Shown piece by piece: positions 49,036 to 54,086 of a DNA stretch of 64,000 nucleotides. The stretch comes from Actinokineospora baliensis. Its GTDB lineage: Bacteria > Actinomycetota > Actinomycetes > Mycobacteriales > Pseudonocardiaceae. The position numbers and the translations under genes were made by a program. The notes beneath the pieces were generated by a model, which did no database searches, was not told the origin of the DNA, and saw only the letters and a list, made by a program, of their open reading frames with translations. The stretch is from the NCBI RefSeq assembly GCF_016907695.1, contig NZ_JAFBCK010000001.1, positions 1,674,001-1,738,000 of the forward strand. The letters are read 5' to 3'. The first letter of the stretch is position 1. Each line of letters begins with the position of its first letter.

Positions 49036-51012
49036 TTAGTCCTCAGAGGTGTTGGTCTTCAACCCGCTGCTGATCAGGTCCATCACCGTCGAGTCCGCGA
49101 GCGTGGTGGTGTCACCGATCGCCCGGTTCTCCGCCACGTCGCGCAGCAGTCGGCGCATGATCTTGCCGCTGCGGGTCTTGGGCAGCTCGTTGACGATCAG
49201 GACCTGCCTCGGCTTGGCGATCGGGCCGATCTCGCTGGCCACGTGGTCGCGCAGCGTCTTCACCGTGTCGTCGGCCGCCTTCGCCGAGCCGCGCAGGATC
49301 ACGAACGCCACGATGCCCTGGCCGGTGGTCGCGTCGCTCGCGCCGACCACCGCCGCCTCGGCCACCGTCGGGTGCGACACCAGCGCCGACTCGACCTCGG
49401 TGGTGGAGATCCGGTGCCCGGAGACGTTCATCACGTCGTCCACCCGGCCGAGCAGCCAGATGTCGCCGTCCGCGTCGTACTTCGCGCCGTCACCGGCGAA
49501 GTAGAAGCCCAGGTCGGCGAAGCGCGACCAGTAGGTGTCGCGGTAGCGCTCGTCGTCGCCCCAGATGCCGCGCAGCATCGACGGCCACGGCTGGTCGAGC
49601 ACCAGGTAGCCGCCACCGCCGTGCGCCACCTCCCGGCCCTGGTCGTCGACGACCTTCGCCGAGATGCCCGGCAGCGGCCGCTGCGCCGACCCCGGCTTGG
49701 TGTGCGTCACGCCGGGCAGCGGGCTGATCATGATGGCGCCGGTCTCGGTCTGCCACCAGGTGTCCACGATCGGGGTGCGATTGGCGCCGATGTTCTCCCG
49801 GTACCAGATCCACGCCTCGGGGTTGATCGGCTCGCCGACGCTGCCGAGCACCCGCAGGCTCGACAGGTCGTAGCGGGCCGGGATGTCGGCGCCCCACTTC
49901 ATGAACGTCCGGATGAGCGTGGGCGCCGTGTAGTAGATCGACACCCGGTGCTCCTGGATGATCTCCCAGTGTCGACCTTCGTGCGGGGTGTTGGGCGTGC
50001 CCTCGTAGACCACCTGGGTCACCGCGTTGGACAGCGGCCCGTAGACGATGTACGAGTGCCCGGTGATCCAGCCGATGTCGGCGGTGCACCAGTAGACGTC
50101 GGTCTCCGGCTTGAGGTCGAAGACGGCGTGGTGGGTGTAGGAGGCCTGGGTGAGGTAGCCGCCCGAGGTGTGCAGGATCCCCTTGGGATTACCGGTCGTC
50201 CCGCTGGTGTAGAGGATGAACAGCGGGTGCTCGGCGTCGAAGGCCTCGGCCGCGTGCGTCTCCGGCTGGCGATCGACCAGCTTGTGCCACCACACGTCGC
50301 GGCCCTCGGTCCAGCCGACCTCGCCGCCGGTGCGCCTGACCACGAGCACGTGCTCGATGGAGGGCGTGTGCGCGGTGGCCTCGTCGGTGTTGTCCTTCAT
50401 CGGGGCCGGTGCGCCGCGCCGGTACTGCCCGTCTGAGGTGATCAGCAGCCGCGCCTGGGCGTCGTCGATGCGGGTGCGCAGCGCGGTCGAGGAGAACCCG
50501 CCGAACACCACGCTGTGCACCAGGCCGAGCCGGGCGCAGGCCAGCATCGAGTAGATCGCCTCGGGGATCATCGGCATCTGGATGGCCACCCGGTCGCCCG
50601 CGCGCAGGCCGAGCTCGCTCAGCGCGTTGGCGGTCTTGCTGACCTCGCGCAGCAGGTCGGCGTAGGTGATCGTCCGGCTGTCGCCGGGCTCGCCGACCCA
50701 GTGGATCGCGACCCGGTCACCGAGGCCCGCCTCGACGTGACGATCGACACAGTTGGCCGCGACGTTGAGCTTGCCGCCGACGAACCACTTGGCGAACGGC
50801 GCGTCGTCCCAGTCCAGCACCCGCTCCCAGCGGGTGTCCCAGGTCAGCCGCTCGGCCTGCTCGGCCCAGAACGCCTCGCGGTCGGCACTACCCCGCTCGT
50901 AGGCGGCCGCTCCGACGTTGGCCGCCGCGCTGAACTCCTCCGCCGGGGCGAACACCCTGCTCTCGGTCGACAGGTTGTCCAGCGTCGGTTGCTGACCGGA
51001 CTGCTCGGTCAT
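49036..51012 (-). CDS. acs: Acetyl-CoA synthetase
   Basis: 658 residues, AMP-forming. P-loop-like ILYTSGTTGNPKGILH, adenylate motif YWCTADIGWITGHSY, and the lysine-acetylation site PKTRSGKIMRRLLRD near the C-terminus, implying control by Pat-type acetylation. GAGGAGG lies 9 nt before the ATG. Convergent with plsC. Confidence 0.96.
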   Translation of the reverse strand: MTEQSGQQPTLDNLSTESRVFAPAEEFSAAANVGAAAYERGSADREAFWAEQAERLTWDTRWERVLDWDDAPFAKWFVGGKLNVAANCVDRHVEAGLGDRVAIHWVGEPGDSRTITYADLLREVSKTANALSELGLRAGDRVAIQMPMIPEAIYSMLACARLGLVHSVVFGGFSSTALRTRIDDAQARLLITSDGQYRRGAPAPMKDNTDEATAHTPSIEHVLVVRRTGGEVGWTEGRDVWWHKLVDRQPETHAAEAFDAEHPLFILYTSGTTGNPKGILHTSGGYLTQASYTHHAVFDLKPETDVYWCTADIGWITGHSYIVYGPLSNAVTQVVYEGTPNTPHEGRHWEIIQEHRVSIYYTAPTLIRTFMKWGADIPARYDLSSLRVLGSVGEPINPEAWIWYRENIGANRTPIVDTWWQTETGAIMISPLPGVTHTKPGSAQRPLPGISAKVVDDQGREVAHGGGGYLVLDQPWPSMLRGIWGDDERYRDTYWSRFADLGFYFAGDGAKYDADGDIWLLGRVDDVMNVSGHRISTTEVESALVSHPTVAEAAVVGASDATTGQGIVAFVILRGSAKAADDTVKTLRDHVASEIGPIAKPRQVLIVNELPKTRSGKIMRRLLRDVAENRAIGDTTTLADSTVMDLISSGLKTNTSED

Positions 51013-51271
51013 GGACCTGACCTCCTCGGTGATCTCCTGGCGGCTGGCGCGGCCGGTTGTCGAGAGGAATCTAGTGCTCCTGGCGCCCGCCCGACAGTCC
51101 GACACCGCATAGGTATAGACCAGTAGGGCCCTGCTCGGAGTTCGTCCGATCGGTGGGTATCTGCTCCGTTCGGCTGTCCTCTTCCGATTCTGCGGAAAGT
51201 AGCCTGGTGGGGACGTACCGTGGTCGGCGGTGATCCGGACAGGAGATGGCCGAGCAGGCGCGAGGAAGTCG

Positions 51272-52477
51272 ATGTCGGGTGGGGGGACGATGGGTGGGCG
51301 CTCACCGCTGGCGGGACCGGAGTTCCGCGCCCTGTGGGTCGCCGAGGCGCAGTCGGTCGCCGGTGATCAGCTCGCCAGGGTCGCCATCTCGGTCCTGGTC
51401 TACCAGCGCACCTCGTCCGCGGCGCTCACCGCGCTCACCTACGCGCTGACGTTCCTGCCCGACATCGTCGCCGGGCCGCTGCTGTCCGGGCTCGCCGACC
51501 GCTTCCCGCGCCGCGAAGTCATGGCCGCCGCCGCGCTCAGCCAGGCGCTGCTGGTCGCCGTCATGGCCATCCCGGGCGCCCCGATCTGGCTCGTCGCCGT
51601 GTGCGTCGCGTTGGAGGCCGCCGCGCAGGCGCCCTTCAAGGCAGCGCAAACCGCACACGCCCGCGTACTCCTCGGCAACGAGCACCTGGCCGCCGGGCAG
51701 GCGCGGTTGACCACGCTGCGCGAAGTCGGTCAACTCGCCGGACTCGCGGGCGCCGCCGCCGTAGTGGGTCTGCTCGGCACCACGCCCGCGCTCATCATCG
51801 ATGCGGCGACGTTCGTGGCGTCGGCCGCGCTGCTGCGGTTCGGGCTGCGGCCCCGGCCCGCCGCCAGGACCGCCGCCGTCGCCGGGGACGGTGTACTGCT
51901 CCCGGATCGCCGTAGGCGCGCGGTGGTGGCTCTCTCGCTCTTAGCCGCGCTGACGGTGCTGCCGCACGGGTTGATCGTGCCTCTGGTGCACGAACTCGGC
52001 GCCCCCATCTGGACGGTGGGGTTGCTGCTCGCCGCTGACCCGCTCGGCCTCGTCGTCGGTGCTTACGTCTTCTGCCGGTCCGGCAGACCGCGGGACTCGC
52101 AGCACGCGCTGATCGCCCCGCTGGCACTGGTCTGCCTGGGTGCGCTGGTGTTCTTCGCGGCTCGCCCGCACCCGGTGCTCGCCGCGCTGCTGCTGGGGAT
52201 CTCCGGACTCGGCGCCGCTTACCAGATCCTCGCCAAGTCGGCCTACGTCGAAATGCTCCCGGACGCGATCACCGGGCGCGCCACCGGCATGGTCCGAACC
52301 GGCCTGCGTGCAGGGCAGGGCCTGTCGGTGCTGGTCGGTGGCCTGCTCGCCGAAGCTCTCGGTTCCGCTTCGCTGACCATCGCGCTGGCCGGTGTGGTCG
52401 GGACCATAGGCTGCGCGATAGCGGGCTTCGTCTGGCACCAGGGGAGGGCCGCGGTACCGAGGGAGGCGGTGGCATGA
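51272..52477 (+). CDS. MFS transporter
   Basis: 401 residues, about twelve helices, with LSGLADRFPRREVMAAAALS as the loop motif; resembles the MFS_3/enterobactin exporter group. Start ATG with GAGGAAG upstream; a GTG at 51230 is less likely. One in-frame TTA codon (51941). It converges on two tiny minus-strand frames encoding MRNREY, so it could export or import a small product, but no other link is visible. Confidence 0.82.
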   Translation: MSGGGTMGGRSPLAGPEFRALWVAEAQSVAGDQLARVAISVLVYQRTSSAALTALTYALTFLPDIVAGPLLSGLADRFPRREVMAAAALSQALLVAVMAIPGAPIWLVAVCVALEAAAQAPFKAAQTAHARVLLGNEHLAAGQARLTTLREVGQLAGLAGAAAVVGLLGTTPALIIDAATFVASAALLRFGLRPRPAARTAAVAGDGVLLPDRRRRAVVALSLLAALTVLPHGLIVPLVHELGAPIWTVGLLLAADPLGLVVGAYVFCRSGRPRDSQHALIAPLALVCLGALVFFAARPHPVLAALLLGISGLGAAYQILAKSAYVEMLPDAITGRATGMVRTGLRAGQGLSVLVGGLLAEALGSASLTIALAGVVGTIGCAIAGFVWHQGRAAVPREAVA

Positions 52478-52484
52478 ACCAGGA

Positions 52485-52505
52485 TCAGTACTCGCGGTTG
52501 CGCAT
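52485..52505 (-). CDS. Putative hexapeptide micro-ORF, copy 2 (MRNREY)
   Basis: ATG followed by five codons (CGC AAC CGC GAG TAC) and TGA, with GAGGAGG 8 nt before the ATG. The same six residues are encoded by copy 1, 78 bp upstream. The in-frame extension to an ATG at 52562 would give a 26-residue product with the same end. Expression is not shown. Confidence 0.4.
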   Translation of the reverse strand: MRNREY

Positions 52506-52582
52506 CGCGGCTTCCTCCTCGACGGTTGGGACTGCTGGATCGACTCGGACCGAGGTGGGGGCCATCGCCCGCACCGCCGGGC

Positions 52583-52603
52583 TCAGTACTCGCGGTTCCG
52601 CAC
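52583..52603 (-). CDS. Putative hexapeptide micro-ORF, copy 1 (MRNREY)
   Basis: GTG followed by CGG AAC CGC GAG TAC and TGA, with GGGAGG 7 nt before the GTG. An ATG two codons upstream is too close to the ribosome binding site. It differs from copy 2 only in the start codon and one synonymous Arg codon. It lies divergent to the GGDEF gene. Confidence 0.4.
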   Translation of the reverse strand: MRNREY

Positions 52604-52694
52604 GGTCATACCTCCCTCTCGGGTCCTGGGGGACCACCCGTACCCCGCCCGCCGCGGGGCACGTCCAGTGTCCCGTCTGTCGCAAAGGGGGACA

Positions 52695-54086
52695 ATGCCC
52701 AGTCTGACAAGTCCCCGGGGCTCCCGCTTGTCCGGCATCCCCCTACCGAACCGGATAAGGGGCCTCGACCTCCTCGCCCACACGACGACCTCCGGTTTCG
52801 CGTGGATCGTGGCCACCGAGGTGACGATCTTCGCATGGGCGGTGGTCGGTGCGGTGTCGGCCGGATGGCCGGATTCCCTTTCCCTGCGGCTGTTCGCGCT
52901 GCTCACCGCGTTCGCGATACTGCACATGGAGGCAACCCGACCGGCGGAAGAACGACGCAGGGCCGCGCATCTGGCGGGTGAGCACATCGACCACACGGGG
53001 GTATGGACGGCGGCGGGCGCGCTGGTGCTGCCGATCCCGCTCGTCGTGGTGCTCGTGCTGATCATCCGGGTGCGCCGGTACTTCATCGCCAGGAAACCCC
53101 CCGGACGCTACGTGTTCACGACCTTCGCCATCACGTCGTCCGCTTTGGCCGCCCAGGCGCTGGCCACCGCGACCCCGCTGCACAACTGGGTGCGCGGTGC
53201 GGCGGTCGAGCCGAACCAGGTGCTGCTGGCCACGATCACCGTCGCGGGCGCGTTCGGGGTGTACTACCTGGCGCAGACGGTCGTGATCGGGATCGCGCGG
53301 GGACTGCGCGGCGACTGGTCGTGGGTGTCGATCCTGGGCAACCGCAAGGAGAACGCCGACCTGGCGATCACGCTGTGCCTCGGCCTGATCGCGGCATGGG
53401 GCGCCGGTGTCGCCTATGGCCTGCTGCTGGCGGCGTTATCGGTCGTCGTGGTCGGCTACACCCGGCACACGCAGCGCATCGAGCAGTTGGAAGTGGAGCG
53501 CGACCGGCTGGAGGTCGACGCGCTGCACGACCCGTTGACGGGCTTGGCCAACCAGCGCGGGTTCAACCCGGCTGCTGCGCTGGCGCTGGTGGCGGACCAG
53601 GCCAGGCGCCGTCCCACCGCGGTGATGATGTTCGACTTGGACCGGTTCAAACAGGTCAACTCCCGGTTGGGCCATTTAGGCGCCAACGAGGTTCTTAAGG
53701 CGCTCGCGGGGGTCTTACGCTCCAGCGTCCGCCGCGACGACCTTGTGTGCCGTTGGGGCGGCGAAGAGTTCTCCGTGCTCTTACCGAGCACCTCTAGGGC
53801 CGACGCGTGGGCGATCGCGGAGCGTATAAGAGGTGCGGTGGAGGCGATGACCGTGGAGCTGACCAAGGCTGCCGGTGGGCGCACAGAGTTGGTCGGTGAG
53901 TTCACCATCTCCGGCGGTATCGCGTTATCCCCTGAGCACGGGACGGATCTGGCCACACTGCAGGAGTACGCCGACCAGGCCCTGGCGAAGGCGAAGGACG
54001 GCGGCCGCAACCAGATCCGGGTCTCGCCGTCGGTGCCGCTGCCCGGCCCGCGCACGAACCGGGAACGGACGCTGGACCCGAGCTAG
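52695..54086 (+). CDS. Membrane-bound GGDEF diguanylate cyclase
   Basis: 463 residues. An N-terminal MASE-like region with about six helices (first WIVATEVTIFAWAVVGAVSA) is followed from about residue 275 by a GGDEF domain with active site RWGGEEFSVLLP and, five residues upstream, RRDD, fitting the RxxD product-inhibition site. Predicted to make c-di-GMP. The ATG has AAAGGGGG upstream. Five in-frame TTA codons (248, 328, 341, 363, 411) are exceptional for this genome type. Confidence 0.9.
   Translation: MPSLTSPRGSRLSGIPLPNRIRGLDLLAHTTTSGFAWIVATEVTIFAWAVVGAVSAGWPDSLSLRLFALLTAFAILHMEATRPAEERRRAAHLAGEHIDHTGVWTAAGALVLPIPLVVVLVLIIRVRRYFIARKPPGRYVFTTFAITSSALAAQALATATPLHNWVRGAAVEPNQVLLATITVAGAFGVYYLAQTVVIGIARGLRGDWSWVSILGNRKENADLAITLCLGLIAAWGAGVAYGLLLAALSVVVVGYTRHTQRIEQLEVERDRLEVDALHDPLTGLANQRGFNPAAALALVADQARRRPTAVMMFDLDRFKQVNSRLGHLGANEVLKALAGVLRSSVRRDDLVCRWGGEEFSVLLPSTSRADAWAIAERIRGAVEAMTVELTKAAGGRTELVGEFTISGGIALSPEHGTDLATLQEYADQALAKAKDGGRNQIRVSPSVPLPGPRTNRERTLDPS

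Follow-up and report, generated by a model that had tools for sequence, protein, structure and literature searches.

Tandem 21-base genes for a hexapeptide next to a predicted membrane diguanylate cyclase in Actinokineospora baliensis: a candidate minimal peptide signalling system

We analysed a 64,000-nucleotide stretch of the Actinokineospora baliensis genome (contig NZ_JAFBCK010000001.1, positions 1,674,001 to 1,738,000; hereafter, the window) and focused on two micro open reading frames (micro-ORFs) lying in tandem on its minus strand. Both encode the hexapeptide MRNREY and end in TGA. Micro-ORF 1 (52583..52603) has a GTG start and reads GTG-CGG-AAC-CGC-GAG-TAC-TGA from 52603 to 52583, and micro-ORF 2 (52485..52505) has an ATG start and reads ATG-CGC-AAC-CGC-GAG-TAC-TGA from 52505 to 52485. 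Each is preceded on the same strand by a Shine-Dalgarno site of its own, GGGAGG for the first (52611..52616) and GAGGAGG for the second (52514..52520). The pair is convergent with an MFS transporter gene (the facing stop codons are 7 nt apart) and divergent from a gene encoding a GGDEF protein. The original prediction had described two tandem 21-base MRNREY frames with separate ribosome binding sites, differing only by GTG/ATG and a synonymous CGG/CGC and flanked by these two genes, and all of this agrees with what we found. Its statement that they lie outside any larger credible gene needs a qualification, as copy 1 lies in a frame that stays mechanically open over 167 codons (52583-53086); this long frame is antisense to the GGDEF gene, and relatives conserve the Shine-Dalgarno site and start codon of the short one.

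A search for the micro-ORF pattern with up to three mismatches matched the window at these two places only, while shuffled windows had 0.08 matches on average and two matches in 0 of 100 shuffles. Exact matches in the whole 7.68 Mb genome were the same two. The intergenic region from micro-ORF 1 to the divergent GGDEF gene (52604..52694) likely holds control sequences, with no promoter identified; no sigma-70-like promoter was found at the window, and upstream of 54 arrays of such micro-ORFs these promoters were no commoner than in shuffles. No Rfam match was obtained up to E 1 in 52300-53000, and the RNA fold of 52400-52680 was not more stable than its shuffles (z 0.64).

The original prediction had proposed searching related genomes for the Shine-Dalgarno site and hexapeptide pattern, and exactly two copies were detected in 11 of 16 Actinokineospora genomes (synonymous codons allowed). 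When these 11 regions are aligned, the ORFs show hardly any variation and both Shine-Dalgarno sites are kept (the purine-rich site of micro-ORF 1 in 11/11), the start of copy 1 alternates between ATG and GTG, and the spacer is divergent with many gaps. The broken frame or ribosome site in relatives that had been named as contrary evidence was not seen in these 11 regions. Three copies depart synonymously from the usual form, with AGA for CGC in G007, AAT and CGT in G013, and CGC replacing CGG in copy 1 of G003. An exact-pattern scan of GTDB genomes returned 19 loci, ten of them in named Actinokineospora; the nine outside the genus were rejected as chance matches, since all nine lack GGAGG in the preceding 20 nt and their frames continue upstream without a stop over 0 to 315 codons.

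Following the MFS gene into other genera showed that the two MRNREY genes belong to a widespread family of very small peptide genes in repeated copies, which has apparently not been described before. The MFS survey combined 30 loci with 80 further places from a longer match list, some of whose entries were skipped, and left out one locus at a contig end (L233); many of the resulting 109 loci come from related species and are thus not independent. At 81 of the 109, one to four antisense ORFs of five to seven codons, each with a Shine-Dalgarno site, lie within 350 nt past the MFS stop, and 47 loci have two or more. Control counts were 2/109 on the sense strand and 2.8% in dinucleotide shuffles, and 700 nt further on they were 3/108 (antisense) and 0/108 (sense). 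The 157 micro-ORFs include 139 of six codons and 156 ending in TGA, with a median start-to-start spacing of 76 nt.

Comparison of the copies within arrays gives good support for selection on the peptide itself. Among 99 copy pairs from 47 Pseudonocardiaceae arrays, the last four codons had 80 synonymous differences and 1 nonsynonymous difference, where 13-32% synonymous would be expected from random single changes, and the codon preceding them had 19 synonymous versus 46 nonsynonymous differences. These counts were based on the 149 of 157 micro-ORFs fitting the core motif; one pair per array across all families gave 38 versus 2. When first and last copies of the 47 arrays were compared with no motif filter, 37 synonymous and 9 nonsynonymous differences were obtained, the nine falling at L222 and L234 (chance ORFs) and at L206. 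Since the last four residues are fixed within an array and the residue before them is variable, the functional unit is the tetrapeptide at the C-terminus, with the approximate form [DNGS]-[RKQ]-x-[aromatic or hydrophobic]. The earlier expectation of a selected peptide is in line with copies that differ almost only synonymously and keep their ribosome sites. A second form of the locus was found in genus g43, where at 5/5 loci examined one ORF made up of in-frame repeats, e.g., VADSNWHRDSNWHLADSNWHRDSNWH, takes the place of the array on the same strand, between the MFS and GGDEF genes. A protein search with one such polyprotein returned 7 proteins, the only named organism being Actinomycetospora chlora ('hypothetical protein'), and three polyproteins had no credible match in Pfam or NCBIfam.

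These patterns bear on two readings in which the peptide is immaterial. The first, raised by the original prediction, is a repeated DNA operator (or a chance repeat), and third positions are indeed also well kept within Actinokineospora. It is contradicted by the in-frame synonymous changes, AGA for CGC among them, by the conserved ribosome sites, by arrays of other genera that share the layout but not the DNA sequence, and by the polyprotein, whose repeats stay in frame, and we regard it as extremely improbable. In the second, the array would act as an antisense RNA, and the passage of ribosomes translating it would control expression of the MFS or GGDEF gene, with the peptide as a by-product. 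The arrays do read into the MFS 3' end and diverge from the GGDEF gene; the conservation of amino acids rather than bases (80 versus 1 above), the polyprotein form that keeps the residues and the persistence of arrays without the MFS gene all argue against it, and it is improbable, if less so than an operator. The original prediction had also offered a regulatory micro-ORF. As an ordinary leader or attenuator this is unlikely where the MFS gene is present, because the array faces the back of that gene without a same-strand gene downstream; the exceptions are the scattered copies of G190 described below, G023, and species lacking the MFS gene.

The peptides are lineage-specific and include MRDKIW, MREKIW, MRNREW, MRNRDM, MRGQNW, MSDRAW, MSDRDF, VTGRDF, MSSRDF and VRDREA. 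Core-type ORFs of Pseudonocardiaceae have Y, F, W, L, M or A as their last residue, and those outside the family finish with W plus one or two further residues. One locus of G024 has ten SSRDF copies. Upstream of GGDEF relatives, two genomes of genus g19 encode VRDREY, VRDREY, VFRDREY, MRDREY and VRDREY (G033) or VSDREY and MRDREY (G070), and G023 a single MRDREL. At the G070 locus (L067) a third short ORF of different sequence, VYIAHHY or longer, with a TGGAGG site, starts about 90 nt past the MRDREY start in the same array.

A class-wide sample of 128 genomes gave 29 MFS loci outside the family, 8 with arrays, and a GGDEF gene adjoins all 8. MRDNTWT occurs in five to eight copies in four family f34 genomes, and the other arrays comprise MRDNKWSR (three copies), MRANSWD and VRGWKWS (two each) and MRGADWC/A; L298 encodes an MFS protein with 100% identity to one from Jiangella mangrovi. 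In this set, L314 and L317 have no sequence past the stop, L315 has 71 nt and L316 435 nt, and L319, with an isolated antisense ORF of unrelated sequence, did not count as an array locus. Sense-strand ORFs were present at L303 and L310, and a GGDEF match without an array at L292 (on the other strand), L303 and L311. Just past the MFS stop of L303, a sense-strand MSKDWK with a strong ribosome site stands beside a weak GGDEF-profile match and is possibly a rearranged relative of the array.

Scanning directly for [x]REY ORFs with GGAGG detected 7 of 397 genomes in the order (six Actinokineospora and G190) and 2 of 325 in the class, both Actinokineospora; matches are few because other lineages carry other peptide sequences, and non-REY types surfaced only by following the MFS gene. 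A single match in the scan of 390 genomes of the family may be due to chance, as a backwards control pattern matched 5 times. G082, with MRDREY tail-to-tail with an MFS relative and no GGDEF gene within 16 kb, was kept because of its ribosome site and the MFS gene beside it, and G190 because it has four scattered copies (MRNREY, MKNREY and MNNREY twice). A duplicated secreted-protein gene follows two of the G190 copies at 54 nt, and a SnoaL-like gene follows one at 50 nt, both names being read from the sequence rather than searched; the same genome has regular MRGQNW and SSRDF arrays at its MFS genes. The duplicated unit (L149, 9097-9077, minus strand, and L150, 7861-7881, plus strand) is 717 bp long and 98% identical between copies, and carries MNNREY placed as a 5' leader, 54 nt ahead of a gene for a secreted-looking protein of 146 residues.

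The array is tied to the GGDEF gene, and usually to the MFS gene, across many genera, so these neighbours are not incidental, as the original prediction had treated them. A membrane GGDEF gene, identified by profile, is next on the MFS strand at 81/81 array loci, and a GGDEF gene is so placed at 10/28 loci where no array was scored (Fisher p 8e-14, with relatedness not corrected). Among those ten, L125 and L230 have an array just outside the criteria, L202 and L226 have the polyprotein form, L171 and L112 are doubtful, and no array is present at L113, L118, L215 and L221, the GGDEF match of L118 being weak and 1.3 kb away. Selecting by the GGDEF gene instead (33 loci, 25 from Actinokineospora), core-type arrays were found on the divergent strand at 21/33 and on the sense strand at 0/33. 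No MFS gene was detected within 1.5 kb at seven of the 21 (G008, G009, G002, G023, G226, G024 and G272); the MFS matches counted at G011 and G014 are fragments. G008, G009, G011 and G014 have no MFS orthologue (best match 43-45%, located elsewhere), with remnant fragments in the last three and nothing significant in G008, and all four retain both micro-ORFs and the GGDEF gene. Their next gene on the array strand, where seen whole, is several hundred bases away and acetyl-CoA synthetase-like, a label that reflects likeness to the window gene at 49036-51105 with no search behind it. In G002 and G006 the closest GGDEF relative adjoins another gene and the array is absent there, and an array-type micro-ORF is present at a second GGDEF gene.

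In 14 long loci, only the MFS and GGDEF families were present in 14/14, and the next gene families reached 6/14. This bears on the possibility that the peptides are precursors of a modified product, similar to ribosomally synthesized and post-translationally modified peptides (RiPPs), exported by the MFS protein, with the GGDEF protein as regulator and the modifying enzyme encoded elsewhere. The aromatic C-terminal residue, tandem copies, polyprotein form and exporter would suit such a product, and very short precursors are known for biarylitide (PMC13417212) and microcin C (PMC11241378). Against it stands the lack of a recurring modifying enzyme; as the original prediction had noted for the window, adenylating, P450 or radical SAM companions do not recur in the 14 loci, where no separate search for those families was made. 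We consider this explanation unlikely. Beyond the GGDEF gene, six of the 14 loci (L235, L237, L238, L247, L248 and L249) carry two further protein families, one with members of 541-634 aa and another, at 186-209 aa, whose sequence suggests an XRE-type regulator; neither is in the minimal unit.

The MFS gene of the window (51290..52477, plus strand) is tail-to-tail with the array; its ORF is open from 51230, and 51290 is the start we chose. The protein matches Pfam MFS_1 (64.5 bits, above the cut-off of 33.4) and resembles the TIGR00900, EntS and Mef exporters with scores below the family cut-offs (113/319.6, 45.8/324 and 35.3/675 for MefA). The GGDEF gene (52695..54086, plus strand, start taken at the ATG at 52695) encodes a protein whose model has six long helices, read as membrane helices and proposed as a sensor (52788..53411), followed by the catalytic domain with a GGEEF motif (53520..54014; PF00990, E 2e-41). 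Across 51 GGDEF sequences the GGEE is invariant and the F nearly so, and with its GG[DE]EF motif intact the protein is a predicted diguanylate cyclase. Every base of 52690-52710, which covers the ribosome site and first codons of this gene (TTGTCAGACTGGGCATTGTCC, minus strand), is invariant in 11 Actinokineospora genomes, third positions also, and a DNA or RNA element may overlap the start region there.

No Pfam sensor model matches the membrane region of the GGDEF proteins well; weak MASE9 (PF20972) matches were obtained for 4 of the 29 members (the lowest E being 0.009) and none for the window protein up to E 1. Foldseek with the whole model had diguanylate cyclase and other GGDEF-type entries among the best 50 matches, and the predicted structure of the membrane region may resemble the ligand-binding S components of energy-coupling factor (ECF) transporters, a fold that would bind ligand from outside. 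A second structural search had no MASE or peptide-pheromone receptor entry among the matches listed, which is not evidence of absence. In 51 trios (with the peptide hand-assigned for five polyprotein loci and L278), peptide type tracked the GGDEF membrane region best; the MFS-peptide relationship given the GGDEF domain had a partial r of 0.11 (p 0.007), but of 0.006 (p 0.44) by ranks. Column-wise covariation localised no interaction. Where one genome in our set has two core-type arrays their tetrapeptides differ (13/13 genomes), as would be expected of private channels.

The array, cyclase and exporter together suggest a very small peptide signalling system, in which the micro-ORFs would be tandem genes for a leaderless hexapeptide, belonging to an array family present in several actinomycete families. 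We propose that the region divergent to the GGDEF gene would give a transcript on which each Shine-Dalgarno site is probably translated, as conservation supports, into identical peptides (fMet-x-[DN]-R-[DE]-aromatic), with multiple copies presumably raising the dose. The MFS protein, where present, would export the peptide, which outside the cell would bind the six-helix membrane domain of the GGDEF protein and change the synthesis of cyclic di-GMP (c-di-GMP). We favour sensing outside the cell because of the constant linkage, the tracking of the membrane region by the peptide and the possible S-component-like fold, and give this reading, an exported signal sensed by the adjacent cyclase, a probability of roughly 0.5; we infer both the export and the sensing steps. 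Alternatively, the peptide may stay within the cell without being exported and serve the membrane GGDEF protein, or the MFS protein, as a ligand or assembly factor. The array and GGDEF gene persist where the MFS gene is lost or not detected, six residues leave no room for an export signal, and three arginines that score among the highest covariation columns (R110, R112 and R118) make up a loop with positive charge, and loops of this type are often oriented towards the cytoplasm. The tail-to-tail array at 81/109 sampled homologues of one exporter family and a fold that would bind from outside speak against intracellular action, which seems unlikely, though slightly less so than a modified product.

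If the exported signal is real, it may represent a new class of cell-to-cell signalling, with minimal peptide pheromones from tandem genes of about 21 bases or a polyprotein, exported by MFS proteins and read by cognate six-helix membrane diguanylate cyclases, through which the peptide would directly set c-di-GMP in actinomycetes, and with more than one private channel in some genomes; we hold this wider claim tentatively, at a little under even odds. We regard the anatomy of the system as new, and its function is put forward hypothetically. We found no family model for these peptides and no description in the one open-access library searched, subscription journals and preprints being outside the scope; MRNREY and MRDREY are absent from its full texts, although a paper with only MNNREY might have escaped the search. 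Annotation overlooks genes of this size, even though many genomes have them in tandem, under strict amino-acid selection, next to the same one or two genes. To our knowledge, the inputs and ligands of most membrane diguanylate cyclase sensors are unknown, and the system would offer a candidate ligand for such proteins and a peptide route into c-di-GMP in actinomycetes, whose development c-di-GMP controls.

Among the closest known systems is microcin C, a leaderless MRTGNAN from the 21 bp gene mccA, exported by the MFS pump MccC, with the C-terminal Asn joined to AMP by MccB to form an antibiotic (PMC11241378). A very short leaderless ribosomal peptide exported by an MFS pump would be the shared feature; here the copies are tandem, the end is aromatic or hydrophobic, core-type ORFs do not end in Asn, a GGDEF protein is the partner, and no MccB-type enzyme recurs in the 14 loci, where no specific MccB search was run. 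Biarylitides likewise come from a very short precursor gene, of 18 bp for five residues (PMC13417212). They have dedicated P450 enzymes, whereas here the product is a hexapeptide and no P450 recurs in the 14 loci. The biarylitide motif also differs from the one here, and we know of no GGDEF partner for either microcin C or the biarylitides. The pheromones of Gram-positive bacteria (Phr/Rap, PapR/PlcR, AgrD/AgrC) arise by cleavage of longer secreted precursors, and their sensors are cytoplasmic regulators or histidine kinases. They resemble the system proposed here in combining a short peptide, an exporter and a receptor, with specificity carried by few residues; here each peptide has a gene to itself or comes from a polyprotein, and a membrane diguanylate cyclase is proposed as receptor. 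The cyclase has the multi-helix membrane N-terminus fused to GGDEF of MASE-type cyclases, from which it differs in lacking a good Pfam sensor match and in having its candidate ligand encoded next door.
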